This document shows positions 38,626 to 56,102 of a DNA stretch of 64,000 bases, piece after piece; position 1 is the stretch's first letter; each line of letters opens with the position of its first letter. The stretch comes from Methylobacterium bullatum (GTDB taxonomy: Bacteria; Pseudomonadota; Alphaproteobacteria; Rhizobiales; Beijerinckiaceae). The position numbers and the translations under genes were made by a program. The notes beneath the pieces were generated by a model that was given only the letters and a program-made list of their open reading frames with translations, was not told the DNA's origin and searched no databases. The stretch spans positions 3,012,001 through 3,076,000 of the forward strand of contig LR743504.1 of assembly GCA_902712845.1 (NCBI GenBank), given 5' to 3'.

Positions 38626-38724
38626 AATTCTGATCCCTGGGGTTCGGCAGCCGGTGCGGCCGCTTCGAGACCTGAGATAGCGACCCTGTTTTACACCCGG
38701 ACGCCTGGTTCGTGACGAAGTGTG

Positions 38725-40053: not shown

Positions 40054-40856
40054 GCGCGCTCAACCTTCGAGGCGAGCATGTAGCCGGCCCCGCGCACGGT
40101 CTTGATGACCGGAGGCAGGCCCTCGGGCGGTTCGAGCTTGCGCCGCAGGCGGCTCACCAGGGTGTCGACGCTGCGATCCGTGGGGGACCCGAGCCTGGCA
40201 CGGGACAGTTCGAGGATCATCTCCCGGCCCAGCACGCGCCCCGGGTGTTCGAGGAAGACGAGGAGGAGGTCGTACTCGGCGCCGGAGAGGTCGACGGCCG
40301 CCCCCTCGGGATCGACGAGCGAGCGGCTGCGCATGTCGAGCCTCCAGCCTGAGAAGGAGAGCACCTCGGATACCGGGGACGAGGGCGACGAGGGTGCCAT
40401 GGAGGCGCGGCGCAAGACGGCACGGACACGGGCCAGGAGCTCGGGCCGGCCGAAGGGCTTGGCCACGTAGTCGTCGGCCCCAAGTTCCAACCCAAGCACC
40501 CGGTCGGCCTCCTCGTTGCGGGCGCTGACCATGATCACCGGCACCGTGCTCCTCGCGCGCAACGCCCGGAGCAGGTCAAGGCCCGAGGCCCCGGGCAGCA
40601 TCACGTCAAGCAGGACGAGGTCGACGCCACCGGCAGGCAGGAGGCGCCAGAATTCAATGGCGCTTCTGCAACCGGTGACACGATAGCCCGCCTCGCGGAG
40701 AAGGCGGGTGACCAGCAGACGCAGGCCGTCGTCATCCTCGACGAGGAGGACGTGTTCCGAACCATCGGAACCCGCGTTGCCCCCGTTTTCGTGGATCAAC
40801 GATTCCTCCGTCCTGCAATGGGCGTCACCGTTCCGTCCGCGGGGGCATTCATACAC
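40050..40856 (-). CDS. OmpR-family response regulator
   Basis: 268 residues. Receiver: VLLVEDDDGLRLLVTRLLRE, phospho-acceptor in DLVLLDVMLPGASG, switch Lys in DDYVAKPFGRPEL. Winged helix: SGAEYDLLLVFLEHPGRVLGRE, RSVDTLVSRLRRKLE, IKTVRGAGYML. The first 30 or so residues are not typical of the family, so a later start is possible. It forms a pair with the kinase that follows. Confidence 0.87.
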   Translation of the reverse strand: MYECPRGRNGDAHCRTEESLIHENGGNAGSDGSEHVLLVEDDDGLRLLVTRLLREAGYRVTGCRSAIEFWRLLPAGGVDLVLLDVMLPGASGLDLLRALRARSTVPVIMVSARNEEADRVLGLELGADDYVAKPFGRPELLARVRAVLRRASMAPSSPSSPVSEVLSFSGWRLDMRSRSLVDPEGAAVDLSGAEYDLLLVFLEHPGRVLGREMILELSRARLGSPTDRSVDTLVSRLRRKLEPPEGLPPVIKTVRGAGYMLASKVERA

Positions 40857-40866
40857 CCGATGCCGG

Positions 40867-41835
40867 TCAAACGACGTGGGCGGGTGCGAGGATGCAGGCG
40901 GTGTCGCTGCTGGTCTCCACCTGCAGGGTGGTGTGGCCGATGCCGAACCGTTCCTTGATGCCGACGGCCGTTTTCATGAGGAACTCGTCGTCGGGCCGGC
41001 CGCCAGGCATTAGGAGATGGGCGGTAAGGCATGTCTCCGTGGTGCTCATCGCCCAGATATGCAGGTCGTGGAGTGACGCGACCCCCGGAAGTCCTTCGAG
41101 GTGGCTGCGGACGGCGTCGGGGTCGATGCCCGGCGGGACGGCGGCGAGGGATAGCGTGAGGCTGTCGCGCAGGAGGCCCCAGGTGCTCCAGACGATAATG
41201 AAGACGATGGCGAGGCTGACGACGGGATCGAGCCAGGTCCATCCGGTGTAGAGGATCACGAGGCCGGCAATGACCACCCCGGCCGAGACGGCGGCGTCGG
41301 CGACCATGTGCAGGAACGCGCCCTTGATGTTGATGTCCCCCTTGGCACCAGAGGCGAACAGCCAGGCGGTGATGCCGTTCACCAGGATGCCGACCGCCGC
41401 GACGATCATCACGGTCTTGCCGGCGACCGGGGCGGGCTCGCCGAAGCGCTGGATCGCCTCCCAGGCGATGGCGCCAACGGCCACCAGCAGGAACACCGCG
41501 TTGAACAGGGCCGCCAGGATCGAGGAGCCCTTCATCCCGTAGGTGTACCGCGCGCTCGGGGCGCGCTTGGCCAGCACCGTCGCGATCCACGCCACGACGA
41601 GACCGAGCACGTCCGAGAGGTTGTGTCCGGCATCGGCCAGCAGGGCCATCGAGTTCGCCAGCACCCCATAAGTGGCCTCGATGGCGACGAAGCCCACATT
41701 GAGGGCGATGCCAATTGCGAACGCCTTCCCGAAGCTCGCCGGGGCGTGGGAATGCCCGGGATGGTCATGGGTCGCATGGGCCTCATGGTCATGCGACCCG
41801 TGGTCGTGACCGGCGTGTGCGTCGTTCGTCGTCAT
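40867..41835 (-). CDS. czcD: Cation diffusion facilitator (CzcD-like)
   Basis: 322 residues. The His-rich N-terminus (HAGHDHGSHDHEAHATHDHP) is followed by six membrane segments with the metal site residues in ADAGHNLSDVLGLVVAW (TM2) and HMVADAAVSAGVV (TM5), then a cytoplasmic domain with LHDLHIWAMSTTETCLTAHL. It exports Zn, Co or Cd in exchange for protons. The start at 41835 has AGGA upstream. It lies 10 nt upstream of the response-regulator gene and is probably co-transcribed with the two-component pair. Confidence 0.9.
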   Translation of the reverse strand: MTTNDAHAGHDHGSHDHEAHATHDHPGHSHAPASFGKAFAIGIALNVGFVAIEATYGVLANSMALLADAGHNLSDVLGLVVAWIATVLAKRAPSARYTYGMKGSSILAALFNAVFLLVAVGAIAWEAIQRFGEPAPVAGKTVMIVAAVGILVNGITAWLFASGAKGDINIKGAFLHMVADAAVSAGVVIAGLVILYTGWTWLDPVVSLAIVFIIVWSTWGLLRDSLTLSLAAVPPGIDPDAVRSHLEGLPGVASLHDLHIWAMSTTETCLTAHLLMPGGRPDDEFLMKTAVGIKERFGIGHTTLQVETSSDTACILAPAHVV

Positions 41836-41881
41836 GGTCGTCCTGTAGCGGTCTTCGACATTCAACGGGTTTGACCGGGGC

Positions 41882-42091
41882 TCACTTGGCCGGTGCGGGG
41901 AGCGTCGCGACGGCGTCTCTCTGGTGCTCGGTCCAGGCCTGCTGAAGAATTTGGATTGAGGAAGTCACGAAGATCTCGGCCATCACCGCCGCCACGATCA
42001 GGTCGGGCCACGCCATGACGGCACCCTTTAACCTTAGAGCCGCGACGACGATCATGAGTAAAGGTCCGCCCTCCGCTAGGTAGGCTTGCAC
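41882..42091 (-). pseudogene. C-terminal fragment of a second CDF transporter
   Basis: 69 residues. The part AVMAWPDLIVAAVMAEIFVTSSIQILQQAW matches the last transmembrane segment and exit of CDF exporters (WPDLIVA is a family hallmark). There is no N-terminal two thirds; upstream sequence shows no matching frame. It probably marks loss of a second exporter gene by IS activity in the region just beyond. Confidence 0.5.
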
Positions 42092-42400
42092 TCGATTTGC
42101 GCGCCGTGAATTTTGGGGAGGCTCCTACGTGGCGGGCAGGAGGCTCGTTTTTGGAACGTCGGTCGCATCGCCGCAGCCGGCAGTTGGTGATGATGGTGAA
42201 GGGGGACGGCGACCGAGGTCTGTAAGTCGTCTGGATGTGCCCGCACGAATGGCGGAAGGGTATGGTGCTGCATCCTCGGCGGGGGCGGTTAAGGGCCAGT
42301 TTCAAAGAGCCGTGTGCCCACACTATGGAATCGTCAGAACCGCCTGTCGACGCCAACATACACCCTTTATTGACGTCGGCGGCTGACCTGGGCGCATACT
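42092..42400 (+). other. Intergenic stretch, no supported gene
   Basis: About 310 nt between the CDF fragment and the transposase remnants. I see no motif, RNA gene or good ribosome site. It is probably degraded. Confidence 0.4.
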
Positions 42401-42640
42401 GATGTAGCCAGGGTCATCGATCTCAGCCGCTTGTTCTGCCAGATCGTCCCGAGCCACTGTTTCTAGCAGCCGTCGATAAAATCAGATGTCACAGGGTTCG
42501 ATCACTGGCTGGATGAAGCGCAAACCTGCGGTGTCTGCATGGCGGAGAGCGTCGCTGCCGGCATCACTTAGCACGGAGACGCCATTCTGTCCGCGCTGAT
42601 ACCGCTTTGGAGCAGCAGGCAGGTTGAAGGCACATCACCT
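42401..42640 (+). mobile_element. ISL3-type transposase remnant
   Basis: One frame reads DVARVIDLSRLFCQIV, a stop, then after a few residues FDHWLDEAQTCGVCMAESVA, another stop at 42569-42571, and WSSRQVEG at 42608-42631. This fits the C-terminal part of ISL3 (IS204/IS1165) transposases, where WSS-x-Q-x-EG contains the final catalytic Glu. Stops at least twice, so dead. No terminal inverted repeats found. Confidence 0.55.
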
Positions 42641-42653
42641 TTCTCACCTGAAG

Positions 42654-42858
42654 GGATTCGAGATCAACCGCCCTACCGAGCAAGCCAACCGACACCGCCT
42701 ATATCGAGTTGTTCAACGGCCGCCCACGGGGAGAATGTCTGAACGCCTAGTGGTTCCTGTCGTTGACGGATTAGCGCGAAAGCATCGACGAATGGTGGCG
42801 CCAATATAACAAAAATCAACCTCACACGACCTCAGATAGCTTAACGCCAAATAATTCG
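42654..42858 (+). mobile_element. IS3-family transposase (OrfB) remnant
   Basis: Reads FEINRPTE, shifts one base, then KPTDTAYIELFNGRPRGECL, a stop (42748-42750), WFLSLTD, a stop (42772-42774), and RESIDEWWRQYNKNQPHT. This is the catalytic C-terminus of IS3 OrfB, with the E of the DDE triad in AYIE-x-FNG. One frameshift and two stops show it is inactive. It directly follows the ISL3 remnant. Confidence 0.7.
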
Positions 42859-43197
42859 GTGTCAATCATTTACATCTCGATTAATTTTATCCAGATCAGA
42901 AGAGGAACAGAGCTAATCTAAAGTTATGTCGGTCTATAGTTGCACTTTTTCCACCATATTGAGACAAGCCGTTCTAACCCTTGTTTGCCAACCTAACTAC
43001 GTGCCCCCACCAGGGCGCCGCCGCCTGCGACTAGATGACAAGGTTAGCACCTCATAAAGAAAACAATAGATTTTTACACGTTACCTGACATAAGCTCTTT
43101 AGATGCATCTGATACATAGGGCGAAGTTTCATCCAGGTCATGGAGGCGCCGGAAAAGCATAACTAGGCCCAAATTCGGGCCAGGAGGACCCCTGGGC
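42859..43197 (+). other. AT-rich intergenic stretch
   Basis: About 340 nt with clearly lower GC than the rest of the window, full of A/T runs. It marks the boundary between the metal genes with IS debris and the phage-like region. An AGGAGG near the end (43182-43187) serves the next gene. No other feature supported. Confidence 0.45.
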
Positions 43198-43419
43198 ATG
43201 GGAAGTGAGCCCGCAGTGCAACGGCCGCGCGACCGCTTTACCGACGACCTGTTCAACCCCGACGGGCTAAGTTACGCCAATGTCGAAGAACAGATCAAAG
43301 CCGAGAAAGAGGCAGCCCGGCAGGCCGCAAAGGCTAGGAAGCTTGAGCGTGCACGCGAAGTCTACGCGCGCAATCGTCTGATCCGCCTCGCGGCGGCGGC
43401 GGCGGCGGCGGCCGACTGA
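43198..43419 (+). CDS. Small charged protein with poly-Ala end
   Basis: 73 residues. AGGAGG lies 10 nt before the ATG. The middle is a likely coiled helix (NVEEQIKAEKEAARQAAKAR), and the protein ends in nine Ala and Asp made by a (GCG)n run. A strong terminator follows at once. No family recognised; it is the first gene of the phage-like segment. Confidence 0.6.
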   Translation: MGSEPAVQRPRDRFTDDLFNPDGLSYANVEEQIKAEKEAARQAAKARKLERAREVYARNRLIRLAAAAAAAAD

Positions 43420-43426
43420 AAAGAGC

Positions 43427-43461
43427 AAGCCCGGCAAGCTGTAAAGCTCGCCGGGCTTTTT
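43427..43461 (+). terminator. Rho-independent terminator
   Basis: AAGCCCGGC (43427-43435) pairs with GCCGGGCTT (43450-43458), with a loop carrying its own AGCT pairs, followed by T residues. It ends the small gene upstream. Confidence 0.85.
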
Positions 43462-43965
43462 CCATGCCTGCAGGGCGGCGGCATCGCCTGTCTTGTCACG
43501 ACTTAGCGACCATCGAACGCTTCAACGGCCGGTTTATGAGCTGTCGAAATCACCCCCCCCTTGGGGTCCCTTCCTTGGGCGGCTTGCTCGATTCGTATTT
43601 CCCCGATGGTGTTCATGGGTAAGCCGTGGAGATTGATGGACCTCCCATGGGAGCCCTCAAGGATCATGGCATCATCCCATATTTATTTGCATACCCCGCC
43701 AAGGCTCCTGGATGACCGCCAGGGCATACCCGAACACCCTGGGTCTCAGAGTGAAGGCAGACTGAAACTCATGGGCGTGTCATGGGAGAAAACGGACTTC
43801 GTATGGGCAAGACATGGGAGGAGGTAGGGTAAGTCTCGCGTTAACCTCAGGCGTTAAGGCTAGGCCCCTGTGAACACTGGTTAAATGCCTAAGCTGGGGG
43901 CACGTTTCGAATGTGCGGGCTCGCAGAGGTGCCGGGCCGCGCACGGTCGACACCATGCGGATAAA
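43462..43965 (+). other. Leader region of the polymerase-like gene
   Basis: About 500 nt with no supported gene. The 8-mer CATGGGAG occurs three times (43647, 43781, 43813) and C-rich runs occur at 43552-43559 and 43970 onward. It could hold control sites for the gene at 43966. Confidence 0.4.
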
Positions 43966-45681
43966 ATGCCCCCCCGAACCAATCGCCCCCCCCAGGGGCA
44001 TGACTTCCCCTTGGACTTCCATTGGAGGACCAAGCCTGCCTTCATCGCCGCCGCCGGCGTCAGCCTGATAGGCCACCCCCGGGCCCTTGAGGCCCGGAAC
44101 TCTATAATGACGAGCCTCGTCCGCGCCGCCCTCGCGGGCCAGGGCGGCTGGGTCTCATACTCGCGGTCAAAAAGGTTCTACGAGCCCCTGTCCCGGTACG
44201 AAGGGACCGCGTACACGTACGACCGGGTCAAGGCGGCGGTGCAGGAGCTCCTGGACCTCGGCTTGATCGAAGAAGAGCGTGCGCTCCCCGGGCCCGCCTC
44301 GCACGGCTGGCAGTCACGCATGCGGGCTACCGACCGGCTCATCGCCGCCTTCAACGACTGCCCTTTCGAGCATGTCGGGCCAAGGGAGGTCATCGAGCTC
44401 CGGGACGTCGACGGCGAGCGCATGGCGTACACTGACACGGACAACACCCGGCGCCTGCGCAAGGTCATGGAAGCCCGCAACGAGGCCGCCAGCGCCATCC
44501 GCATCGAGATGCCCGAGGGCGACGGATGGCTCCACACGCCGGGGCACGTCCGCGCCCGGTCCGAGAAGACCGGCGGCTGGGTTGGCCTTCGCCCCACGCC
44601 AGCGCCCATCATGGTCCGGATCTACGGCCGCGGCCGGTGGGACATGCACGGGCGCCTGTACGGCTGGTGGCAGCAGCTCCCCCAGGCCCGACGCATCGAG
44701 CTCCTCATCAATGGCGAGGTGGCGTTCGAGGAAGACTGGAGCGCCTGTCACCCTAGGCTCCTCTACGCCATGGCCGGGAAAGTCCCCGTCGGCGAAATCT
44801 ACGACGTGGACGGGTACGACCCGAGGCACGTCAAAGCGGCGCTCCTCACCGTCATGAACACGAGGACGACCTACGGCGGCATCCTGTCTCTCATGAAGCG
44901 GGAAGAGGACAGCCCAGGCGAGTGGCCGCACTCCCTCGACTACACGAAGGGCTTGATGAAAGCGGTCACGCACCGGCACGAGCCCATCGCCCATTTCCTC
45001 GGGGCCGACATGGGGGTCCGCCTGATGCACATCGAGAGCGAGATGTGCGTCGAGGTCCTCAAGAAGTCCGAGAAGGAGAACATACCGGCGCTGCCGGTGC
45101 ACGATTCTTTCGTGACGCAGGCCTCGAAGGGGCCCCGAGTGACCGCCATCATGGCCGACGTCATGGATGCGACGTGCGCCGAGATAAACCCCTGTCAGAC
45201 CTCAAGAAAGAGGGGATTCACCCCACATATGGGAGCGCGGGGTGCGCGGGCGGTTGGTTCCGGGTGTTGCGTGGGTTCTTCCGCCTCCGCGTCTCCTGAG
45301 GTCGTCAAGACTGAGGCGGTCTCCGTTCCTGTCTCGCCCGTGGCTTCTCCTACCCCTCGGCCCTTGCGCTGGGACCCGGCGGAGAGGCTTGAGGCGATGA
45401 TCGCGTACCAGATCAAGACCGAGAGGATCTTGATGTCTGAGGAGCGGTGTGAGGGGATTTTCGAGGCATGGGAGCGGCGAGAGGCTAACGCTCGTGCAAT
45501 CGCGAAATCGGTATGTGCGTACGAGAACGAAGCCGGAATTCGTGCCTTCCCGACGCACATCGTCCCCGACCGTATCGGTCCCAAGACAGCCTCCCTCAAG
45601 CGGGGGCGTAGCCCGAGGAAAGCTGGTTCCACGGTCAGGGGCCGGAGGCCTCGGGGATGCCTCAGTGAGGTCAGGGCGTAG
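43966..45681 (+). CDS. Polymerase-like protein of the phage-like element
   Basis: About 571 residues from the ATG at 43966 (an in-frame ATG at 43885 is also possible). The middle shows three segments in the order of family A/T7-like polymerase palms: a motif A-like EEDWSACHPRLLYAMAG with Asp257; a motif B-like RHVK...TTYGG with Arg287, Lys290 and Tyr303; and a motif C-like LPVHDSFVTQ with Asp380. Upstream GRGRWDMHGRLYGWWQQLPQ fits a nucleic acid-binding segment of such proteins. The C-terminal 170 residues are Ser/Pro/Arg-rich and not recognised. Likely a replication enzyme of the element, or a related nucleic acid polymerase; this is inference from motifs, since overall similarity to a named family could not be tested. 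Confidence 0.6.
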   Translation: MPPRTNRPPQGHDFPLDFHWRTKPAFIAAAGVSLIGHPRALEARNSIMTSLVRAALAGQGGWVSYSRSKRFYEPLSRYEGTAYTYDRVKAAVQELLDLGLIEEERALPGPASHGWQSRMRATDRLIAAFNDCPFEHVGPREVIELRDVDGERMAYTDTDNTRRLRKVMEARNEAASAIRIEMPEGDGWLHTPGHVRARSEKTGGWVGLRPTPAPIMVRIYGRGRWDMHGRLYGWWQQLPQARRIELLINGEVAFEEDWSACHPRLLYAMAGKVPVGEIYDVDGYDPRHVKAALLTVMNTRTTYGGILSLMKREEDSPGEWPHSLDYTKGLMKAVTHRHEPIAHFLGADMGVRLMHIESEMCVEVLKKSEKENIPALPVHDSFVTQASKGPRVTAIMADVMDATCAEINPCQTSRKRGFTPHMGARGARAVGSGCCVGSSASASPEVVKTEAVSVPVSPVASPTPRPLRWDPAERLEAMIAYQIKTERILMSEERCEGIFEAWERREANARAIAKSVCAYENEAGIRAFPTHIVPDRIGPKTASLKRGRSPRKAGSTVRGRRPRGCLSEVRA

Positions 45682-45821
45682 CCTTCAGGATAGCCTCAGG
45701 GATAGGGGCCGGAGGCCTTAGGAGAGCCTCGTAGGATAGGGGCGTAGCCTCTAGGGTCACCCTATACCTTGCGGGGGCCGGAGGCCTCAGGAGAGCTTCC
45801 CAAGCTGTCAGGGGGGTAGCC
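45603..45821 (+). repeat. Alternating palindromic repeat array
   Basis: Two short palindrome-centred words alternate about every 35 nt. GGGGCGTAGCC or close variants lie at 45603, 45673, 45739 and 45811. GGGGCCGGAGGCCT lies at 45638, 45705 and 45774. The repeat period is 66-72 nt. The array starts inside the 3' end of the polymerase-like gene and runs past its stop. Iterons of a replication origin or binding sites are possible. Confidence 0.7.
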
Positions 45822-45944
45822 AACCGAGATGACATTTTCCTTGTCAGGACCGTAGGTTACGTCGCTTCTCCCCTTGTACAATTCGTCTGAATTCGCTATC
45901 TTTTAGCTGTCTCCGCATGGGACGGGCGTTGCACCTCAACCCCC

Positions 45945-45981
45945 GAAACCCCGTCCCCCGCACCACGGAGGACGGGGTTTC
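45945..45981 (+). terminator. Strong hairpin, possible terminator
   Basis: GAAACCCCGTCC (45945-45956) pairs perfectly with GGACGGGGTTTC (45970-45981), 12 bp with a 13-nt loop. No T-run follows on either strand, so it may act as an RNA structure instead of a terminator. It lies between the repeat array and the next gene. Confidence 0.5.
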
Positions 45982-46013
45982 TCGTTGTGGCTTGCCAGGG
46001 TCGAGCGCACCCT

Positions 46014-46385
46014 ATGAGCATGTCCGCCGGCATCCCCTTGAACCCATCCCTCCCTGCCTCGAAGGCGACCCGTCGTGATGCGGACCGGGCGAGGAAACGC
46101 GCCGCCCGTCAGGCCCTTCGCGAGGCAGGCGCGCCTGACCCTCGCCAACTCGATGCGGCTATCGTCGACGCCCTTCGGGACGTTCTCCTGGCCTGCGCCA
46201 ACTCGGTCGGGAACCGACCGGGGGAGCCCCTGGTGGCTAGCGTCGTGGATGCCAGGGAGGTCCTCCGCCTCGCCCTACGGGGTCTCCGGGGACGCGATAG
46301 CGGTGGCGTGCCCCTTCAGACGGAGGCGATACGTGCGGCCTTGGTGGCTCGTCTCGCGCCCCCTCAAGACGGGTCAGGGGCGTAG
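46014..46385 (+). CDS. Hypothetical protein of the element
   Basis: 123 residues; Arg/Ala-rich first half (KATRRDADRARKRAARQALR), then LDAAIVDALRDVLLACANSV and EVLRLALRGLRGRDSGG. Mostly helical. It resembles short phage proteins of unknown function. No clear ribosome site. Confidence 0.55.
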   Translation: MSMSAGIPLNPSLPASKATRRDADRARKRAARQALREAGAPDPRQLDAAIVDALRDVLLACANSVGNRPGEPLVASVVDAREVLRLALRGLRGRDSGGVPLQTEAIRAALVARLAPPQDGSGA

Positions 46386-46758
46386 CCCAAGGGCATCCCT
46401 ATGCCCAAGGGATGATCCGCACTCCGTCCCTCACCCCTGCACGATTTCATGCAGGGGCATGCCCGTTGGCGGTTTCGATGCCCTGCGTACCCGGAGGCCT
46501 CGGAGGGCCTGGGATCGTCCGTTGCACGGCCCCGGGGCAGGATCCCTCCCGTGCGCTGGTCCGTACTGCGTCGCCCTCCCTGACCCCTCCTAGGGGGGCG
46601 ACGGGAGGGCATCCCCTTCCCGGACAGCCGGTGACAAAGGGCGAGATAGGGGGTGGAGTGGGTCCCTCCTGGGGGAGGCGAAAGCAGGAGTCGCGGGTCC
46701 GTAGGCTGGCCCGGCATACACCGGAAATTTTTGGGTACGCACCCCGCATACCGCCTGG
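46386..46758 (+). other. Non-coding stretch with hairpins
   Basis: About 370 nt. CCCCTGCA (46434-46441) pairs with TGCAGGGG (46450-46457). GGGCAT and ATGCCC form another short stem near 46391-46406. Near the end, GGTACGCA-like words recur in both orientations before and inside the next gene. No gene supported. Confidence 0.45.
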
Positions 46759-47178
46759 ATGATCAGAGGGTTACGGGTGCGCACCGACGTCCGTCTTAGG
46801 TACGCAGAGATCCAGTCCGCACCCGTGCGTACCTTGCGCGGCTACGACCGCAACGCGCGTACGCACTCGGACAGTCAGATCTCCCAGATCGGAGCCGCAA
46901 TCGAGCGCTTCGGTTTCACGCAGCCTCTCCTTGTGGACGAGCACGACGTGGTCATCCTCACTGACGGCAGCCAGGACGTCCGGACGCTCATATACCTGGC
47001 GCACGACAATCTGTTGGGCATCCCGAATTCCAACAACGCGCTCTATCTGTTCGTGGCCACGCGCGACGAGGGCGAGACGTGGTTCTCGACGTCGGTCAAT
47101 AATGGGGCCGGGACAGGCCCCCCAGTCAACGTTCAGATGTCCTCTTGGGCGGGGATGCACCCCCTTTTCCCGACCTAG
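46759..47178 (+). CDS. Truncated ParB-like domain joined to unrelated sequence
   Basis: 139 residues. The first 65 read as the ParB/Spo0J-like domain found in front of phage DNA methylases: GYDRNARTHSDSQISQIGAAIERFGFTQPLLVDE. The expected IIAGHGR motif is replaced after VDEHDVVI. The remaining 70 residues (for example TLIYLAHDNLLGIPNSNNAL) have no resemblance to that family. A recombination joint near 46963 is likely. Whether the chimera is functional is unknown. Confidence 0.55.
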   Translation: MIRGLRVRTDVRLRYAEIQSAPVRTLRGYDRNARTHSDSQISQIGAAIERFGFTQPLLVDEHDVVILTDGSQDVRTLIYLAHDNLLGIPNSNNALYLFVATRDEGETWFSTSVNNGAGTGPPVNVQMSSWAGMHPLFPT

Positions 47179-47771
47179 CTCCCCAGTCCATCGAGGCGAC
47201 GCGAGACGATCCCGGGGGCCCCGGACAGGGCCTCCTCCACGAGGTCGTAGAATGGCAACCGCGGCTTGTACCGGGCCTCCTCGACTATGAGCGCCAGGAT
47301 CTGCGTCTTGCCGTTGCGCCGTCGGATAAGGGCCGGGGGCTTGTCCGGCCGGAGCTTCACCCATCTCACGCCGGGCTGCTGCATGACGCGCTGGACGTAT
47401 CCGCGGGGCAGGTTTCCGTACGCATTCCGGGGAGCGTCTTTCCCGGGGATCAACGGTCCGAGCTTGGTCGTCGCGTAATCGCCGGCTTTCCGGACCCCAC
47501 CGAATATCTCAAGGGCGAGGTACCGCGCCTGAAGCGGGAGGACGTCAACCTCGGCCTCGACGTCCCGGCCCCCCGGGCGGGCCTTCCTCACCCCGATCGC
47601 TTTCATCGTGAATGGGGTTGGCTTGTCGAGGTGGATGGGCAGTGCTTCGGTCACGTGAAGCCGGGCGGCCTCCGCCAGGGCGTTCACGCTGTCCACGAGC
47701 GCCGCTCGGATGTCCGCCGGACCGAGCTCGTCGCGTTCTGGGGGGTCGATTTTGATGGTTACCTGCAGCAT
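47175..47771 (-). CDS. Phage structural-like protein
   Basis: 198 residues. Recognisable from prophage genomes by HVTEALPIHLDKPTPFTMKAIGV, then RYLALEIFGGVRK, RNAYGNLPRGYVQRVM and YKPRLPFYDL near the end. Such proteins lie in head or tail modules of phages; exact role unknown. The ATG at 47771 is chosen because upstream residues are of low complexity and run through another gene. It is tail to tail with the ParB-like gene. Confidence 0.55.
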   Translation of the reverse strand: MLQVTIKIDPPERDELGPADIRAALVDSVNALAEAARLHVTEALPIHLDKPTPFTMKAIGVRKARPGGRDVEAEVDVLPLQARYLALEIFGGVRKAGDYATTKLGPLIPGKDAPRNAYGNLPRGYVQRVMQQPGVRWVKLRPDKPPALIRRRNGKTQILALIVEEARYKPRLPFYDLVEEALSGAPGIVSRRLDGLGS

Positions 47772-48018
47772 GCCGGCATGCTCGGACCGCCGCGTGAAAC
47801 CGACGAGCCTGCCGCGAAACCGGGTGCCCGCGTCCACTTGGATTTTCGATGCATTGCCTAGGAGTAACGGGTACGTCGCCCCCCTATTGCCTGAGCAATC
47901 CTCGGACACGTCCCAGGCAACCAACGCCCAGGGAAACGGTAACCCTGGCGTGACGATCGTCTTGCCAGGGCGATCTGGAGCTGAATCTATGGGTTCCTGG
48001 GCGGACGGGGAGACCACG

Positions 48019-48273
48019 ATGAGCAGGCAGACCGACAACTTCCACAACGGCATGCACAGCGGCATGATGGCGGTCGGCGTGGCTCTCGTCGCGGGCCAGC
48101 GTGCGCGTCGTGAGGCGCAGGCTTGGGCGCAGGCAGACGCAGATGCGGAGAGCGCCGTCCACCGCCTGGGCCAGGCCCTCATGGCATCCCGTCGTCGGGA
48201 AGCGGAACTCGCACGTGATCTCGCCGCGGCTCAAGCGGAAATCCGCGCCCTGCGTCTCGCCCGCCGTCAGTGA
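48019..48273 (+). CDS. Small coiled protein of the element
   Basis: 84 residues. Starts MSRQTDNFHNGMHSGMMAVG, followed by a long charged helix (ALMASRRREAELARDLAAAQ). GGGGAG precedes the ATG. No family recognised. Confidence 0.55.
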   Translation: MSRQTDNFHNGMHSGMMAVGVALVAGQRARREAQAWAQADADAESAVHRLGQALMASRRREAELARDLAAAQAEIRALRLARRQ

Positions 48274-48351
48274 GAAATATTCCGTGGGGGGGGTTGTGCC
48301 TTTCCCCTGCGGGCCAGATTCGGCCTATTTGCGGACCATTTGCGGACCACG

Positions 48352-48384
48352 AAAAAAGGGCCCGCCGGGATGACCGGCGGGCCC
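48352..48384 (-). terminator. Rho-independent terminator (minus strand)
   Basis: GGGCCCGCCGG (48358-48368) pairs with CCGGCGGGCCC (48374-48384). On the minus strand it is followed by a run of T (A-run at 48352-48357). It ends the minus-strand gene at 48406-49005. Confidence 0.85.
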
Positions 48385-48405
48385 TTCGCATTGAGGGGGC
48401 AGGGG

Positions 48406-49005
48406 TCAGGCCACCTTGCGGCGGCGGTCCCTCTCCATCGCGAGATTTACGAGCTCGGCGATGGCGACGTCTTCCGGGTCGTCCGAGAGCGGACGCGTCC
48501 ACGTCCATTCTGCGGATGTGTCCGCAGCCGGTGCGGATGTATCCGCATTCGCGGCCGGGGCCACTTCACGGGGGGCGGGTCCCGTGAGGGACGGCAGGCC
48601 GTCGATCAGGGTGCCCGACACGTGGGCCTCAGCCTCGTGCGGCAGCGATGCCGCGAGCGTCACGAGCTCGGCATGAGACAGGCCCCGGGCCCAGGCCAGG
48701 ACGGGCTCGGGGAGGGTGGACGTGTCCGCGGCCGGCCCCCCAGCGACGAGGTGCCGGGCGTAGGAAACGAGAGGCACGCCAACCTGGTGGCGGGGAGCGG
48801 GGCCCTGATAGGGAGCCGGTGCAACCGCAGGGGCAGGCGCATCGAGGTACGCCGCGGCCGCGTCCGTAGCGGGCAGGACGGGGGTCGTGACACCCGTCGC
48901 GGACCGGACCGCACGGAGGACCCAGCGGCCACTCTCGAAGATGAGGGCGAAGACGGTGGCGATGGCGGCTGCGGCGAGGGCGGCGATACGGGCGAGGAAG
49001 CTCAT
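48406..49005 (-). CDS. Membrane-anchored hypothetical protein
   Basis: 199 residues. One N-terminal membrane helix (LARIAALAAAAIATVFALIF), then a long Pro/Ala-rich linker (PAPAVAPAPYQGPAP) and a small helical domain (HLVAGG...LPEPVLAWARGLSHAELVTLAASL). No family recognised. It ends just before the minus-strand terminator. Confidence 0.5.
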   Translation of the reverse strand: MSFLARIAALAAAAIATVFALIFESGRWVLRAVRSATGVTTPVLPATDAAAAYLDAPAPAVAPAPYQGPAPRHQVGVPLVSYARHLVAGGPAADTSTLPEPVLAWARGLSHAELVTLAASLPHEAEAHVSGTLIDGLPSLTGPAPREVAPAANADTSAPAADTSAEWTWTRPLSDDPEDVAIAELVNLAMERDRRRKVA

Positions 49006-49069
49006 GGGCGGTGGTCCTGTGCTGGGGGGTGACGATCTCGATTGTCCGGGTCGCCTCGCAATCGACAAA

Positions 49070-49873
49070 TCAGACCGTGGCGAAGATGCTCTCGACCATC
49101 GTCCGGGGCAGTTGCTTGTGGTGCACACGGAGCAGCCGGAGCGCGTGACTCGCCTGAGCGACGTCGAGCTCCGGCAGTGCGTCGAGGACGTGCCCGTCGA
49201 TTGTTGTCGATTTCGACCATCCAATATCGTTGCGCGTCGTCGCCCAGTCCGCGTCCTCTCGGGTAATGAGACGGACCCCTTCAAGAGCCAGGGACCTCAC
49301 TTCGGGACGCTCGGCCAGGGCCCGCTCCCCCTCGTGCACGGTTGCTAACTTGACCTCGGACCGCGCGACGTTCTTGCCCGCGCGTTCGACGAGGGACAGC
49401 AGTCGCATCGCGTCGGCGACGTCCAGGTCCGGGCGCTGGAGGAGGCCCTGAGCCTCATCGACGTCGACCCGGCGGGCCCAAGACCACCTTCGATCTTTTA
49501 GGGACCGCGTCGCCTCGTCCCGTGCCCGGTCGATAAGGTCAGCGATCCTCTGCCGTTCCGCGGCCGCCGCTGCGGCCCGGGTCGCCTCCCTGGCGGCGAC
49601 CCGGGCCGGGATGCCGTCGATTGCGATTTGGACGGCGTCCAGGTCGTGATCGGGCGCCTGCCAGAACAAAAGGTCACGCCCCTCACACGTGAGGCCGAGA
49701 GCTGAGAAATCAGTCACGCCCGCGGCCATCGCCTCCTGGCACTCGGGCGTCCGGACGGCTCGGCTGCGGTACCGCATGCCGCCACGCGTGTAGTGCAGCT
49801 GCCCGGACTGCCACTCCAGTCCCCACCAAGCGGGCGGCTGCACATAGGGGTGGGGCGGCGTCGTGTGGGGCAT
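49070..49873 (-). CDS. Hypothetical protein, divergent from repressor
   Basis: 267 residues. The N-terminus reads PPAWWGLEWQSGQLHYTRGG; the middle is a helical, Ala/Arg-rich stretch (AAREATRAAAAAAERQRIAD). Two similar parts follow: LLQRPDLDVADAMRLLSLVERAGKN and LDALPELDVAQASHALRLLRVHH, an internal repeat. No known family. It is transcribed away from the repressor-like gene and shares the inverted-repeat region upstream. Confidence 0.55.
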   Translation of the reverse strand: MPHTTPPHPYVQPPAWWGLEWQSGQLHYTRGGMRYRSRAVRTPECQEAMAAGVTDFSALGLTCEGRDLLFWQAPDHDLDAVQIAIDGIPARVAAREATRAAAAAAERQRIADLIDRARDEATRSLKDRRWSWARRVDVDEAQGLLQRPDLDVADAMRLLSLVERAGKNVARSEVKLATVHEGERALAERPEVRSLALEGVRLITREDADWATTRNDIGWSKSTTIDGHVLDALPELDVAQASHALRLLRVHHKQLPRTMVESIFATV

Positions 49874-49983
49874 GAGCGATCCTCGAATCTGCGGATCTGA
49901 GTAATGTAGCAATCGTATTTCGGATCGCAACAGAAACCGTCGAGGCTCTTTCGACAACACCGCACGACGATTTCGACAACGAT

Positions 49984-50018
49984 TTGAACAACACGGTGTT
50001 GTTGAAACTGTTGTTCAA
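49984..50018. promoter_or_regulatory. Large inverted-repeat operator
   Basis: TTGAACAACA (49984-49993) and TGTTGTTCAA (50009-50018) are perfect inverted repeats. Nested inside is AACAACAC-G-GTGTTGTT (49987-50003). Further copies of TTTCGACAAC lie upstream (near 49949 and 49971). It is the shared control region between the gene at 49070-49873 and the repressor-like gene at 50144, as in phage repressor operators. Confidence 0.65.
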
Positions 50019-50143
50019 ATGGCATCTAGCCTAAAGCTATCGCCCAGGTTGTATAACATCAAAGGCATAATTTACGTGGACCTGGAAATTCTCGTATGGG
50101 TTGCGATATAATGTTCTCGGCGGATTCGCGGAGGACAAAATGG

Positions 50144-50413
50144 ATGGTGGAATTAACGGAAGCGGAGGTCAGGCTGTTGCTTCGCGGGGCATGCCGCCGG
50201 GCGGGGTCGCAGGACGCCTGGGCACGCCAGACGGGGCTGTCCCCGCAGCACGTTTCGGACGTCCTGCTCGGACGGAGGGAGCCGGCCGGTCAGGTCCTGA
50301 GAGCGCTGGGGCTCTCGCGCAGGGTCCGGTACGTCGAGACGGCCGCCGGGGACCCAAGCGCTACTGCAGGATCCCCCGAGCCCGGTGCGAGGAGTACCTC
50401 AACGACGGTCTGA
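50144..50413 (+). CDS. Cro/C1-like HTH regulator
   Basis: 89 residues. Start MVELTEAEVRLLLRGACRRA, then the helix-turn-helix SQDAWARQTGLSPQHVSDVLLGRREP as in XRE/YdaS regulators. The ATG at 50144 has GGAGG 9 nt upstream. It sits next to the inverted repeats at 49984-50018 and is most likely the element's repressor or Cro protein. Confidence 0.65.
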   Translation: MVELTEAEVRLLLRGACRRAGSQDAWARQTGLSPQHVSDVLLGRREPAGQVLRALGLSRRVRYVETAAGDPSATAGSPEPGARSTSTTV

Positions 50414-50823
50414 CCTATCGCGAGATCGCCCGCGTCGAGGGGTGGGACGAGAAGACGATTGCGGTGCACTGCAGGGGGCTCGGGCTCACATCCCAGCCAC
50501 GCCAGCCAGTTGTCACGCTCTTAGACGTCGAGAGCGCGCGTGAGGGACGGGAGACTGTCCGAGAAGTCGCGGACCGCCTGGGCGTCACGATCCAGGCCGT
50601 GCACATCTGCGCGTACCGGAACGGCACCAGGATCCCGCGGCGTCCCTCACGTCTCGACTACGAGACAATGAGAAGGGTAATCCTCGCGCACGCCCCGCTC
50701 TCGCAAGCCGCCCTGGAATTGGGCGTCACTCCCGAGACGCTCTACCGGCGCGCCGGCCAACTTGGTCTGCCCGGCGACCGCCGCGGCCGGACGCTGCTCC
50801 GCCGCCGGGAGGGGGGGGTCTGA
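50380..50823 (+). CDS. HTH protein in an overlapping frame, start unresolved
   Basis: The second frame, open from 50101, is coding-like from about 50380: CEEYLNDGLTYREIARVEGWDEKTIAVHCR (HTH), VREVADRLGVTIQAVHI and LSQAALELGVTPETLYRRAGQLGL (two further HTH-like helices). It has no ATG at a sensible place: the ATG at 50140 and TTG at 50101 would translate a long nonsense-like N-terminus overlapping the regulator gene, and the GTG at 50464 removes the first HTH. Frameshift from the upstream gene or an unusual start may be used. Coordinates give the region I can support, not a defined start. Confidence 0.45.
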   Translation, partial: ARCEEYLNDGLTYREIARVEGWDEKTIAVHCRGLGLTSQPRQPVVTLLDVESAREGRETVREVADRLGVTIQAVHICAYRNGTRIPRRPSRLDYETMRRVILAHAPLSQAALELGVTPETLYRRAGQLGLPGDRRGRTLLRRREGGV

Positions 50824-51236
50824 TGTGCGATCTCATCGAGAACCTGCAGAACCTCGGGATCGCCCAGGTCCGGGCCCGCCTGACCCAGGCACGGGCCGCC
50901 GCGCAGGCCCTGATCGACGACCCGGCGCTCCCGGAGATCCGGCGCGAGCATCTCGCGGTTGCGCTGGATGACGCAGATGCCCGCCTGCTCGACATGGCCC
51001 GCAACATCCTGTTCCACCTCGCCGGCGAGATCGAGGCCGCGGGCGAGCCCGTCGAGGAACGCGTTGACCTGGACGCAAACAGGTCACCCGAGGAGCGTGC
51101 GGTGGTCGTGGGGATCCTCGACGATCTCCTTGCCGAGGATGGCCCGTCCCCCGATCCGGTCGCGTCCGGGATGCCTCGGCCTCTGCCGCCGCCGCCGCTT
51201 CCGCCGGGAGCCCGGGGCGCACCCACCAGAATCTAG
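50823..51236 (+). CDS. Hypothetical helical protein
   Basis: 137 residues, ATG overlapping the preceding stop (TGATG), so coupled. Helical N-terminal two thirds (IENLQNLGIAQVRARLTQAR, LLDMARNILFHLAGEI), Pro-rich end. No family recognised. Confidence 0.6.
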   Translation: MCDLIENLQNLGIAQVRARLTQARAAAQALIDDPALPEIRREHLAVALDDADARLLDMARNILFHLAGEIEAAGEPVEERVDLDANRSPEERAVVVGILDDLLAEDGPSPDPVASGMPRPLPPPPLPPGARGAPTRI

Positions 51237-51312
51237 ACGCCGCATTTCGAGGCCTGGGCGCCCGGCTAGGGGCGCATTTCCCGCAGCCCTTTCACCGACA
51301 GGACCACGCATC

Positions 51313-51942: not shown

Positions 51943-51952
51943 TCATCTATGA

Positions 51953-52972: not shown

Positions 52973-53503
52973 TCACCGTGTGAGGACGCGTTCCTCCGGC
53001 TGCGTGTCACTCGCGGCCATGCGTTCGAGGATCTGGCTGAGGGTCACCGGGCGGTACGACCACACGTCGACCCCGACATCCTGTGACTGGGTCGTGCCGG
53101 GCAAGAGCCCATGCGTGTGCCCGAAGAGGTGGAGCGACCCCCGATAGGCACGCGGCCACGAACGCATGGGGTAGTGGCAGAGCACGACGTGGCGGTCCTC
53201 GACGGAGATCTCCCTGATCCCGTCGTGCTGCTCCGCCCAACCGAGCTTGCGATTCTTGCGGTCATGATTCCCGGCGATGAGGATCTTGCGGCCGTTCAAT
53301 CTCCGGAAAATCTTGCCGGCATACTCGGGCGTCGAGAGCGCGAAATCGCCGAGATGGTAGACCGTGTCCCCGGGCTGGACGGTCGAGTTCCAGGCCTCGA
53401 TGAGCATCGCATCGTGCTCCTCTATACTGGCGAACCCAGGGCGCAGACCATGAAGAATTGAGGCATGCCCGAAATGGGTGTCCGCAGTGATGAAGTTGGC
53501 CAT
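52973..53503 (-). CDS. Calcineurin-like metallophosphoesterase
   Basis: 176 residues. All family motifs are seen: FITADTHFGH (D-x-H), VYHLGDFAL (GD-x2), ILIAGNHDRKN (GNHD), VVLCHYPMRSW and LHLFGHTHGLL (GH-x-H). It is a small single-domain phosphatase of the type often carried by phages and mobile elements; substrate unknown. The start at 53503 is chosen because MANFITADTHFGH is the usual beginning. Confidence 0.85.
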   Translation of the reverse strand: MANFITADTHFGHASILHGLRPGFASIEEHDAMLIEAWNSTVQPGDTVYHLGDFALSTPEYAGKIFRRLNGRKILIAGNHDRKNRKLGWAEQHDGIREISVEDRHVVLCHYPMRSWPRAYRGSLHLFGHTHGLLPGTTQSQDVGVDVWSYRPVTLSQILERMAASDTQPEERVLTR

Positions 53504-53737
53504 GACGGCCTCCATAAAATGGAGGCCGGCGCGCGCGCTCAGGTCCTCCTCAGGTGACGGGAAGGGGGGCGAATGCCCGGGTTTTTCGCGACATGGGGGA
53601 GGCCTCGGGGGCGGGGTGAATCTGGACGATCGCAGCTCGCCGAGAGGTGGGCAAGCGCGACGTTTGCGCAGGGTAAAGAAATCCCTGGCCTCAATTTGGG
53701 ATCGACTCCCGGCCTCGTTTGTTCTTCATTCGTTCTC

Positions 53738-53971
53738 ATGAGCGAATCGATGGAGACAGTCGTGGACGAGATGGAACGCGCCTATCTGGATGCCTGCGAC
53801 GGTGACGCGCGGGATGCCCTGCGCCGGGCCCTGGGCGATGCCCTCCAGGAGCTCGCGGCCGTGGACCGACAGGTCAGCCGGGGTTTCGTGCGGGCGGGCA
53901 AGCCAGCGGATCTCGCCCGCAAGCTGGGACCTGAACGACGCGCCCGGCAGGGTCAGGGGGCGGTTGGCTGA
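53738..53971 (+). CDS. Small hypothetical protein
   Basis: 77 residues, mostly helical (MERAYLDACDGDARDALRRA, LQELAAVDRQVSRGFVR). Tail to tail with the integrase gene, overlapping by 19 nt. No family recognised. It may be an accessory protein of the integrase, by position only. Confidence 0.45.
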   Translation: MSESMETVVDEMERAYLDACDGDARDALRRALGDALQELAAVDRQVSRGFVRAGKPADLARKLGPERRARQGQGAVG

Positions 53972-55521
53972 GCCCTCCCGGGGCCTCGCTTCGTGCGTTC
54001 CCTCGTGACCGGTGCCGGCAGCGCGGCCAGCGCGGCCCGCTCGTTCTCGTAGGCCTCCAGCACCGCATCGACCCACAGGGCCATGCCCTCCGACTTGAGG
54101 GGTATCCGTTGGCTCCGGTCGTAGTGAAGGCGCGTGACGGCGGAGCGGCGGTCGCGCTCGTCCTCGGTCACTCCGGCCTCGTGGTCCAGGATCGCGGACG
54201 CGGCCCCGCCCAGGCGATGGTCCGAGAGGAACGTCGTGATCGCCCGGCGGACGTCATGCAGCGTCCAAGGCCGGATGCCGTGGATCCCGAAATAATCGAC
54301 CAGCGGCCGCGCGGTGACCGTCGACCCCGTCACCTTCTTCCCCCGCAGCCGGTAGAGGAGCGCGTTCAGGGCACCCTGGCCGACATGGCCGTCCCCCCGG
54401 ATCGACGGGAAAAGCCAGCGATTCGTCTCACGGTCGGGATCCTCGGCAAGCACCCGGTCGATCACGTACCAGGCGCCCGGGGGGAGGGGGAGCACAAACG
54501 GGCGATCTTCCTTCATGACCCCGGCGCTCCATGTCACGGCGCGCCAACCCGGTCCCGGCACGCCGGCGTCCTCGGGGATGGGGGCAACGTCCAACCGTGC
54601 GGTCTCCGCGACGGCGCCCGTGCGCTGGCCCGTGAGGACAGTGAACCACAGCATCGCTAGAGTGCCCGGCGCGGTCGCGTGTTCCGTCTGACCGAGTGTC
54701 CGGTATCTCTCCGCGACGGCCAGGGTCCGGGCGAGCTCGTCGATCTCGGGCGCGTGCCTGCGCTTGCTCGGCTTGTATCGGATCGTCCACTGGTCTCGCC
54801 AGAGCGGCCACTTCTCAGTCGCCTTCGCCATGCCGGACACGCCGCTATGGTTCGACCAGGCCCAGTCGAGCATCTCCCGTCCCTGGCGTACGGCCCGGGC
54901 GGCCGCGCTGCGCGAGTTCGCGGCGATGATCTCGTTCCGGATACCCTGCAGGTCGGTGGCCGTGACCTCACGGACGGGGCGGCGGGCGATCCGGTCGAAT
55001 GCCTTGTGGCGCAGGTACGAAGCGTATGCGGGGAAGTACCCAGGGTCGAGGTCCGGCCGCTTCTCCTCAAGGAACAGATCGACGAGGTCCCGCCATTCCC
55101 ACGGGCCGTGCCGCCGCCGGTCCTCGTCGCTCTGCCGTTCTACCTCCACCGGCCAAGCCGCGTCCGCCGAGGTCTCGTGGTCGCCGCCGGTCGTGACCAT
55201 GGCATGCGCGTAGACGGCGACGTCCTGCCGGGGGTCCCGCCCATCCTTCACGTCCAGCCGGGCCCGGGCGGCCGCCTCACGCGCCGCGGCGACCGAGACG
55301 GAAGCCATGTCCCCGAGGCGGAGGGTCGACATGCGGAGCTTGAGGATCCAGTTGCCGGCCGCCGGCGTCACGCGGAGCACGAGCCCCGGGAAGGCGTCGT
55401 CGCAGAAGTCGATCCCGCGGCCGGGGACGGTCCCGCTATCGATCATCCGGCGCGCCTTCTTCAGGTGCTCCGCCGTCAGCCGCGCCCGCTCCCGTGCGTA
55501 TGTCCCCCGCGATGCCGCCAT
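53953..55521 (-). CDS. Tyrosine recombinase (phage-type integrase)
   Basis: About 522 residues from the ATG at 55521 (a longer frame to 55608 is possible). N-terminal arm-binding domain with IDFCDDAFPGLVLRVTPAAGNWILK; a core-binding region; catalytic domain with TGQRTGAVAETARLDV (Arg I), TLHDVRRAITTFL (His-x-x-Arg) and TRLHYDRSQR (Tyr). Longer than usual integrases, with an insertion in the central region (HETSADAAWPVEVERQSDED). Its 5' end lies 150 nt from a tRNA-Gly 3' half, the likely attachment site. It would catalyse excision and integration of the phage-like element. Confidence 0.9.
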   Translation of the reverse strand: MAASRGTYARERARLTAEHLKKARRMIDSGTVPGRGIDFCDDAFPGLVLRVTPAAGNWILKLRMSTLRLGDMASVSVAAAREAAARARLDVKDGRDPRQDVAVYAHAMVTTGGDHETSADAAWPVEVERQSDEDRRRHGPWEWRDLVDLFLEEKRPDLDPGYFPAYASYLRHKAFDRIARRPVREVTATDLQGIRNEIIAANSRSAAARAVRQGREMLDWAWSNHSGVSGMAKATEKWPLWRDQWTIRYKPSKRRHAPEIDELARTLAVAERYRTLGQTEHATAPGTLAMLWFTVLTGQRTGAVAETARLDVAPIPEDAGVPGPGWRAVTWSAGVMKEDRPFVLPLPPGAWYVIDRVLAEDPDRETNRWLFPSIRGDGHVGQGALNALLYRLRGKKVTGSTVTARPLVDYFGIHGIRPWTLHDVRRAITTFLSDHRLGGAASAILDHEAGVTEDERDRRSAVTRLHYDRSQRIPLKSEGMALWVDAVLEAYENERAALAALPAPVTRERTKRGPGRAQPTAP

Positions 55522-55673
55522 GTCCGTCTCCGTGGATACCGCATGGATACCGCACGTCCGAAACGCGGCCGCAAGAGTCCCCGGGAACGGTCCACCGGGA
55601 AAAGCCATGCAGGATTAACGGTTTGCGCGGGAAGCGCCGGGGAGGTGGCGAGGCGGAAAGCCCGGGGGATCGT

Positions 55674-55718
55674 CCTTCCAAGCTGAATACCCGGGTTCGA
55701 TTCCCGGTACCCGCTCCA
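55674..55718 (+). other. tRNA-Gly(TCC) 3' half, presumed attachment site
   Basis: Sequence reads CTTCCAA (anticodon loop with TCC), GCTGA, then the T arm CCGGG-TTCGATT-CCCGG, acceptor strand TACCCGC, T and CCA. The 5' half is missing: the upstream bases do not pair as D arm, acceptor or anticodon stem. Duplicated tRNA 3' ends mark the boundary of integrated elements. The intact tRNA is not seen in the window. Confidence 0.75.
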
Positions 55719-56102
55719 CTCCCTTACCTTGAAAATTTGCAGCAGATCGAACGGGATAGGCTTCTTTTGGGAGGTCTCCTCGGCGTTTGATCCGAGCGAT
55801 CGATACCTCCCAAATGGGCAGATGAGCGGCCCCCAAGGACGGTTACGGACAGGCCGATATCACCCCCAGGCTCCGGCTGGGACTCGCGGGCATCACGGCA
55901 TCCACGACGAGGCAACCGGGCTTGAGGAGGCCCCTTGGTCTCTTCCTGGCTGTAGAGCGCCACGCGGGCGTGGAGATGCGGGCAGGTCCGAGAACGGAAC
56001 CATCGATTTTTCGTGAAAGCGCATGGAGTCCGGTTCTTCCCCTCCGGCAGAGTGGGGAGGAGCGAACCCACCGACCGGCGCATGCCCTGGCCCATGGGGC
56101 AG
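55719..56102 (+). other. Intergenic stretch beyond the attachment end
   Basis: About 380 nt between the tRNA fragment and arsB of the second cluster. Frames on either strand show no known motif or ribosome site. If the element ends at 55718 this is host DNA. Confidence 0.4.

Follow-up and report, generated by a model that had tools for sequence, protein, structure and literature searches.

Genomic context of the polymerase gene

The window, that is the whole stretch of 64,000 nucleotides analysed here, carries a polymerase-like gene surrounded by phage-like genes within a mobile island (Table 1). Positions 1-55723 probably belong to a genomic island some 67 kb long, with its right end at 55674-55723, because a 50-bp copy of the end of tRNA-Gly(TCC) stands beside the integrase and the intact tRNA gene (G000:C1:3000799-3000872) lies about 67 kb to the left of this copy. 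The island may be composite; it holds metal-transport-like genes, recognised by eye, as well as the phage-like genes around the polymerase. Two permease genes, ArsB-like by eye (7342-8637 and 56103-57551), share 83% DNA identity, one being in the island and the other just past its right end. At the left window edge, an OLD-family-like ATPase (AAA_15 with an OLD-like TOPRIM, 70-2115) is a possible phage defence gene. A dispersed repeat of about 190 bp (42646-42831) recurs in many genomes of the genus, mostly at 70-79% identity, often partial and in several copies in some of them. A search of Rfam over 38000-58000 gave no match. The heptamer CATGGGA was rejected as a shared DNA site: it occurs six times in 42500-46500 and is present in the near copy L216, but is absent in five more distant relatives.

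Table 1. Features of the polymerase gene and of the right part of the island (window coordinates; residue numbers refer to the polymerase).
Feature	Position	Strand	Basis or remark
divPolA2-like polymerase, 571 aa	43966..45681	+	Frame open from 43885
N-terminal winged-helix-like domain, residues 23-138	44032..44379	+	Model of residues 1-215, pLDDT 82
Predicted palm domain, about residues 140-412	44383..45201	+	AlphaFold2 model, Foldseek, second structural comparison
G229-R230-L-Y232, like Pol A 'TGR' and T7 RNAP 'RGRVY'	44650..44661	+	Directly precedes motif A; GR invariant in 57/57; hhalign to Pol A; T7 sequence
Motif A, DWSACHPRLLYA	44734..44769	+	Residues 257-268; D257 catalytic by analogy; H262 at Pol I E710 position
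E277-I-Y279	44794..44802	+	Likely equivalent of T7 RNAP D569-I-Y571, judged solely from order and spacing
True motif B, R287, K290, N298	44824..44859	+	N298 at Pol I Y766 / T7 RNAP Y639 position
TTYGG, motif B of the preliminary description	44866..44880	+	Not the motif
Motif C, VHDSFV	45097..45114	+	Residues 378-383; D380 catalytic by analogy
C-terminal tail, residues 413-571	45202..45678	+	Mostly low confidence, two helices; dN/dS 0.65, unusually low dS
Frame with phage-type ParB-like N-terminal stretch (residues 18-71)	46759..47178	+	phrog_15396, E=3.8e-14
Minor tail protein homologue	47175..48182	-	phrog_1924, E=5e-27
HTH DNA-binding protein	50101..50823	+	One of the phage-like genes around the polymerase
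Phage-type metallophosphoesterase	52973..53515	-	phrog_547, E=1.2e-51
Integrase with Arm DNA-binding domain	53953..55608	-	PF13356, E=6.1e-10
Likely attachment-site repeat	55674..55723	+	50 bp identical to the 3' part of tRNA-Gly(TCC), beside the integrase

Reading frame, motifs and selection

The frame is open over 43885-45681 on the forward strand and its ATG at 43966 gives the Methylobacterium protein of 571 residues, to which the similarity of relatives begins around residue 12. Alignment A7, composed of the window protein and 56 relatives that are 17-91% identical to it (57 sequences), shows G229, R230, R243, E255, D257, Y279, K290, L376, H379, D380 and M396 to be invariant, while His262 is found in 54, Asn298 in 56, Ser381 (HDS) in 55 and Arg286 in 55 of the 57. 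Such motifs are far above chance. The preliminary description of this locus, made from the sequence alone, had correctly recognised the frame, motif A, motif C and the Ser/Pro/Arg-rich tail, but not motif B, which it gave as R..K..TTYGG. That spacing does not occur, and the stretch actually reads R287-H-V-K290-A-A-L-L-T-V-M-N298-T-R-T-T-Y303-G-G. TTYGG is thus a chance resemblance, since K290 is invariant, N298 nearly so, and hhalign sets them on K631 and Y639 of T7 RNA polymerase (RNAP); its Tyr303 sits five residues beyond the true position, according to both the A7 columns and hhalign. The R-x3-K spacing of motif B is kept in 55 of the 57 sequences, the exceptions at column 286 being the window protein and its near copy L029, where P286-R287 brings the Arg one residue nearer to K290. 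At three further positions the window protein departs from most A7 members, with E277, M354 and E357 in place of D, Q and D. Given the shifted Arg, together with M354 and E357 instead of the usual Gln and Asp, the window copy could be impaired.

Selection was evident when the window was compared with one 91% identical relative (L029): dN/dS was 0.13 over residues 1-135, 0.20 over residues 136-412 and 0.65 over residues 413-571, where dS was just 0.08. The core is under purifying selection. As for the tail, in five relatives from the genus (L218-L222) a stop codon falls on the position of window residue 417, at which the window tail starts, and a similar (L/F)xPHM stretch follows beyond that stop. 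Three imperfect direct repeats of 34 nt with GGGGCCGGAGGCCT, 67-69 bp apart, overlap the end of the polymerase frame (45630-45799). Read-through or recoding of the stop is disfavoured, and the tail is taken as added rather than recoded because of its low dS and of the adjoining short repeats.

Family membership and distribution

The sole PHROGs family found with the window protein was phrog_4756 (E=3.1e-28, best stretch residues 223-398), which bears a function-less label, is matched by all 57 A7 members, and is a term for which our literature search found no mention. Searches of Pfam and of PDB sequences with the window protein returned nothing credible: DUF1612 reached E 0.37 only, and Kelch-like design proteins (PDB, whole-chain E 2.5e-4) amounted to one weak match repeated, with no single stretch significant. 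Profiles A1 and A7, neither of which includes the divPolA2 representative AUR84708, matched it at E=5.4e-44 and 5.3e-41, respectively. The window protein is almost certainly a divPolA2 homologue, with the palm of the superfamily formed by Pol A and the single-subunit RNAPs, and is a new member of an already named, uncharacterised family. This family was described in "DNA polymerase swapping in Caudoviricetes bacteriophages" (Virol J 2024, PMC11348598), and the name is also used in a preprint (PMC11188092). The former article reports it in 110 barbaviruses and other Caudoviricetes, at times with two or three copies per genome and in variable gene neighbourhoods, and judges it to be either an RNA polymerase or a DNA polymerase of repair; the published set was searched only in Caudoviricetes, and the main text, supplements aside, contains neither "integrative" nor "bacterial genomes" (PMC11348598).

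We find, as a new observation, that bacterial chromosomes too carry members of the family, in many cases close to integrases. It was present in 18 of 289 genomes of the class (a count that includes the window's own genome and the doubtful G122, locus L018) and in 26 of 59 of the genus (own genome included), with four places in one genome (G706); phrog_4756 was found in 24 of 398 genomes of the phylum (own genome included) and in none of 14 control genomes. With the window as query, the scan of genome contigs gave only three loci, all from Methylobacterium, and tblastn gave matches of 21-29% identity in 14 phage records (50,697 searched) and matches in 3 plasmid records (72,556 searched); genes 100% identical to that of the window lie on contigs assigned to M. 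bullatum and "Methylobacterium sp. 10". With a more phage-like member, that of Aeromonas phage PAc, 290 phage records were retrieved (Vibrio 146, Rheinheimera 115, Aeromonas 14, and others), many of them near-copies, whose proteins, which include ICP1 ORF100, are nearly all called "hypothetical protein" among the matches listed. Scans of IMG/VR viral contigs found nothing with the window alone or AUR84708 alone, and 4, 2, 56 and 14 overlapping loci with sub-alignments, the best scan giving 56.

In all, 59 distinct frames, L029 included, were gathered from the scans, three of which were left out of A7; eight duplicate or fragment frames had been removed before the first alignment, L006, L016, L017 and L018 were kept out of A1, and the N-terminal alignment A8 took 45 of 54 N-terminal pieces. 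In the tree, from which L018 (probably not a true member) was omitted, bacterial and viral members interleave yet each kind clusters (13 changes versus 35.4 in shuffles). One viral contig of 20 kb (L063) carries two divergent members a few kb apart (3087-4394 and 7816-8832).

Among 18 bacterial neighbourhoods, a related tyrosine integrase lies near the gene in 12 (Pfam-checked for 2) and a serine recombinase in 4 (Pfam-checked for 1). RNase HI adjoins the polymerase gene in 3 of these 18 and is separated from it by about 1.4 kb in a viral contig; near the gene of a close viral relative (contig L076) stand a relaxase gene and an endolysin-like one. In a plasmid-like contig of about 21 kb (G105:C14, L033), a unit some 8.9 kb long is repeated that holds ParA, RepA, resolvase-like, methylase-like and divPolA2 genes. 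The self-identity of this contig at a lag of exactly 8949 bases is 9296 of 11051 positions, which suggests indels between the copies or a contig that does not form a clean circle. The contig was rejected as a small plasmid with divPolA2 as its only replicase, as the repeated unit also encodes RepA.

Predicted fold of the core and of the N-terminal domain

The AlphaFold2 model obtained with A7 (mean pLDDT 78, pTM 0.70) was mostly above 90 for residues 11-410, and much of the tail was below 50 save for two helices. Against the PDB, Foldseek returned 217 matches at E up to 10; a single one, Bst Pol I (6e-4), had E up to 0.001, and the next in rank were Pol A and mitochondrial RNAPs. A second structural comparison ranked yeast mtRNAP 8c5u (Z 13.1, 342 aligned, 6.1 A), T7 RNAP 1s76 (Z 12.5, 245 aligned, 3.7 A), apicoplast Pol A 5dkt (Z 11.8, 231 aligned, 4.2 A) and Bst 4dsj (Z 11.3, 240 aligned, 4.5 A); as these values lie within 2 of each other, they designate the superfamily and not the branch. 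In a search of viral models, the top 11 were proteins of 400-450 residues, one of them named "DNA polymerase" (Rheinheimera phage Barba31A). The prediction of a palm fold is strong and supports what was put forward earlier, a right-hand palm whose A and C motifs are of the family A/T7-like type, for which a fold search had been proposed as the test.

Folded alone, residues 1-215 gave pLDDT 82 and pTM 0.73. Several searches, each of them weak, jointly point to one fold, a winged helix. Foldseek placed PadR, VanR and other winged-helix regulators first, none with E below 0.05 and with other folds too among 50 rows. The second structural comparison returned mostly winged-helix proteins, as judged by name, the best being 2obp (75 aligned, 2.8 A, within residues 23-138) at a Z of 7.1 that falls under the tool's own caution line of 8. 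A sequence profile search also had winged-helix proteins on top, at non-significant values (1xma E 0.068, AspA 0.16-0.28), and the same search with A1 did not have them among the matches listed. The N-terminal domain is probably a winged helix according to these models. It was described as having no detectable similarity to known proteins (PMC11348598), and its likeness to winged helices, with weak scores, would be new. With residues 23-138 matching winged helices and residues of about 140-412 matching a palm, there would be no room for an exonuclease, an absence that a fold search can suggest but not prove.

Register and sugar pocket

Two sets were used for comparison, T7-type RNAPs (n=7) and bacterial and phage Pol A (n=28). 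Aligned by hhalign with the former, R627xxxK631 and Y639 fall on column 286, K290 and N298 (E=9e-4, probability 23); with the latter, TGRLSS..NLQNIP..DYSQVE falls on GRLYG..WWQQLP..DWSACH (E=6e-4, probability 28), each E-value being that of a single comparison. T7 RNAP numbers were checked on the T7 sequence; the corresponding Pol I residues are E710, Y766, E883 and Q849. The equivalences of Y279 and Q354 are by order and spacing; DIH, by pattern, stands at the place of EIY in 15 of the 28 Pol A sequences. Gln354, a Pol A-like residue, was present in 75 of 113 relatives, with Met in the window protein.

These 113 relatives, with near-copies and the doubtful L018 counted in, are the proteins of at least 280 residues among 116 distinct ones from 167 matches. 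At positions 262 and 298, 82 have His and Asn, 2 His and another residue, 1 His and a gap, 10 a residue other than His together with Asn, and 18 have both changed. The 18 stand in five separate places of the tree by eye, though common ancestry still inflates the count, and 12 of them lack HDS in motif C (HDA, HDG, YDE or FDE instead), with HDS retained in 5 and a gap in the remaining one. The positions of Pol I E710 and Y766 thus appear, as a new feature read from the alignment, to tend to change together in the family. Glu/Tyr, with a Glu after the motif-C Asp, is the pattern of Pol I and is seen in AUR84708 and in the 2017_Dha_A allele of ICP1; L205 and L206, close to these two, have Glu/Asn, and L180, L181 and L197 have Gly at 262, like T7 RNAP.

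The product may be approached through residue resemblances only as a guess, which favours RNA over DNA by a hair. Tyr279, HDS and the slightly higher Z speak for RNA, whereas the GR..Q stretch and the Gln354 found in most relatives point to Pol A. The resemblance of motif C to that of T7 RNAP, pointed out in the preliminary description, held well, HDS being present in 55 of the 57 sequences and VHDE in 21 of the 28 Pol A sequences retrieved.

Phage relatives and the replicase question

A separate Pol A match was found in 13 of 22 virus records bearing divPolA2 (18 contigs, possibly fragments, and 4 named phages, with T7 as a 23rd record and control), 12 being over the cut-off, and in 7 of a further nine (eight named phages, one labelled partial genome, and one contig), 5 being over the cut-off. 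Named phage records with the gene had such a match in 11 of 12 cases, 3 of these below the cut-off; the twelfth is Barba35A, a barbavirus. T7-type RNAP (PF00940) was found in none of the 22 records, and PolB (PF00136) in none of 27, Barba35A included, an absence that means little because this search misses the PolB reported in barbaviruses (PMC11348598). ICP1 has a Pol I, Gp58, and a helicase-primase, Gp57 (PMC9040626). Its isolates carry, at one locus between genes 97 and 103, two divPolA2 alleles, ORF100 (HQ641347) and 2017DhaA_0495 (MW794152); in L203 and L204 the gene sets between these genes also differ (ORF98-ORF102 in one), each with its own allele. An accessory place in phages agrees with the published view that divPolA2 is not the replicative enzyme there (PMC11348598). 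The earlier suggestion of the element's replicase is unlikely, in line with the separate Pol A match of nearly all named phages and with the RepA of the plasmid-like contig, so that of the earlier interpretation the palm and the likeness of motif C stand, motif B was misplaced, and the replicase finds no support in the phages or in the plasmid-like contig.

Possible function

Taken as a whole, the window protein is probably an island-borne divPolA2 member acting as an active accessory polymerase guided by its winged helix. By analogy, we consider it quite likely to be an active enzyme; an accessory role is likely, and guidance to DNA by the winged helix is what we infer from the domain. From a mechanistic point of view, a winged-helix-like domain would be fused to a compact palm of the Pol A/single-subunit RNAP type, with no room for an exonuclease. 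The winged helix would bind DNA, D257 and D380 would join nucleotides by the usual two-metal mechanism and R287/K290 would hold the triphosphate. The enzyme may make short RNA (primers or transcripts) or fill short gaps for the mobile element, rather than replicate it.

That the protein fills gaps or repairs DNA as an accessory DNA polymerase, with the N-terminal domain replacing the thumb in holding the primer-template, is possible rather than probable. This reading corresponds to one of the two options in PMC11348598, and is consistent with the Pol A-like GR..Q..R..D stretch, with Gln354 in most relatives, though not in the window, with Pol I as the best Foldseek match and with the annotation of some relatives as "DNA polymerase" (e.g., H96). 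His/Asn at the E710/Y766 positions, HDS instead of HDE and Tyr279 as in T7 RNAP argue against it, and nearly all named phages with the gene already have a Pol A match. Somewhat doubtful is a site-specific primase or initiator, whose winged helix would sit on the origin of the element while the palm makes an RNA primer for the host or phage polymerase, later removed by RNase HI. The presence of a winged-helix-like domain and a palm in a single chain, and RNase HI adjoining the gene in a few elements, would fit such a role, but this adjacency is rare, ICP1 has its own primase-helicase Gp57 (PMC9040626) and the plasmid-like contig with the gene has RepA. The candidate repeat CATGGGA near the window gene is, moreover, absent from more distant relatives.

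Abortive-infection reverse transcriptases use a palm for unusual nucleotide polymerisation, and an analogous enzyme of phage conflict (defence, counter-defence or superinfection) would agree with two different alleles at a single ICP1 locus, with the four places in G706, and with the variable neighbourhoods and the two or three paralogues of some phages (PMC11348598). However, no defence partner was noticed adjoining the gene and the ordinary catalytic residues are kept, which makes this role quite improbable. Decay into an inactive remnant is less probable still: the island does have seemingly broken prophage genes, such as a solitary tail gene and the ParB-like stretch in a frame that continues as other sequence, and the P286-R287 shift changes motif B, yet the frame is intact in both the window and L029, with dN/dS of 0.13-0.20 over 412 residues. 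An active accessory polymerase guided by its winged helix is preferred. It would be a bolder and unlikely step to see in the family a separate class of winged-helix-guided single-subunit RNAPs or primases of mobile elements, between Pol A and T7/mitochondrial RNAPs, with its own His/Asn sugar pocket and with Glu/Tyr (DNA-type) or Gly (T7-type) in some lineages, which would then form a natural series of rNTP/dNTP switching.

These findings bear on the relation between T7-type RNAPs and Pol A, and define a catalytic core for the proteins of 290 phage records, among them ORF100 of ICP1, a cholera phage. The frequency of the family in bacterial chromosomes, the probable DNA-binding winged helix and the co-varying sugar-selecting positions offer a direct way to test DNA versus RNA as the product.

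Comparison with known polymerases

Like the single-subunit RNAPs (T7, mitochondrial; PF00940), the family has a palm, R-x3-K in nearly all A7 members, HDS, GRxY before motif A and Tyr279 at the likely place of Y571. It differs from them in the size of the core, about 412 residues in the window versus 883 in T7, in an N-terminal domain unrelated to theirs (PMC11348598), and in having His262 at G542 and Asn298 at Y639, where those enzymes have Gly (motif A D+5) and Tyr (motif B K+8). The window protein was unmatched by PF00940 (RNA_pol), which found 6 of the 57 A7 members at E up to 1, the best at 0.017 and below the cut-off. With Pol A (PF00476), the family shares the alignment of GR..WWQ..P..R..D to TGRLSS..NLQNIP..DYSQ, Gln354 in most relatives and a Z of about 11-12. 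By contrast, the window protein appears to have no room for an exonuclease, and in most relatives the E710, Y766 and E883 positions are not occupied by Glu, Tyr and Glu; where Pol A has Glu (motif A D+5), Tyr/Phe (motif B K+8) and HDE, the window has His, Asn and HDS. PF00476 gave no match to the window at E up to 10 and was not among the families listed for the 57 members, which were 25 of 27.

The closest known system is divPolA2 itself, with which the window protein shares the homology of the core (AUR84708, E=5.4e-44), both catalytic Asp, in motifs A and C of a predicted palm, an N-terminal globular domain and a fold match to mtRNAP (Z of about 12 in PMC11348598, 13.1 at best here). divPolA2 is further characterised by having neither an exonuclease domain nor a thumb homologous to those of other polymerases; in the window protein the stretches matched to the winged helix and the palm would leave no space for the former. 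It differs by its pocket of His/Asn/Ser versus Glu/Tyr/Glu in AUR84708, its long C-terminal tail, its shifted motif-B Arg and an N-terminal domain that appears recognisable as winged-helix-like. The window copy lies in a bacterial chromosomal island with phage-like genes, and not in a phage, whereas most of the named phage relatives checked do encode the protein in addition to a regular polymerase; such a location is a trait of the published divPolA2 set rather than a defining one.
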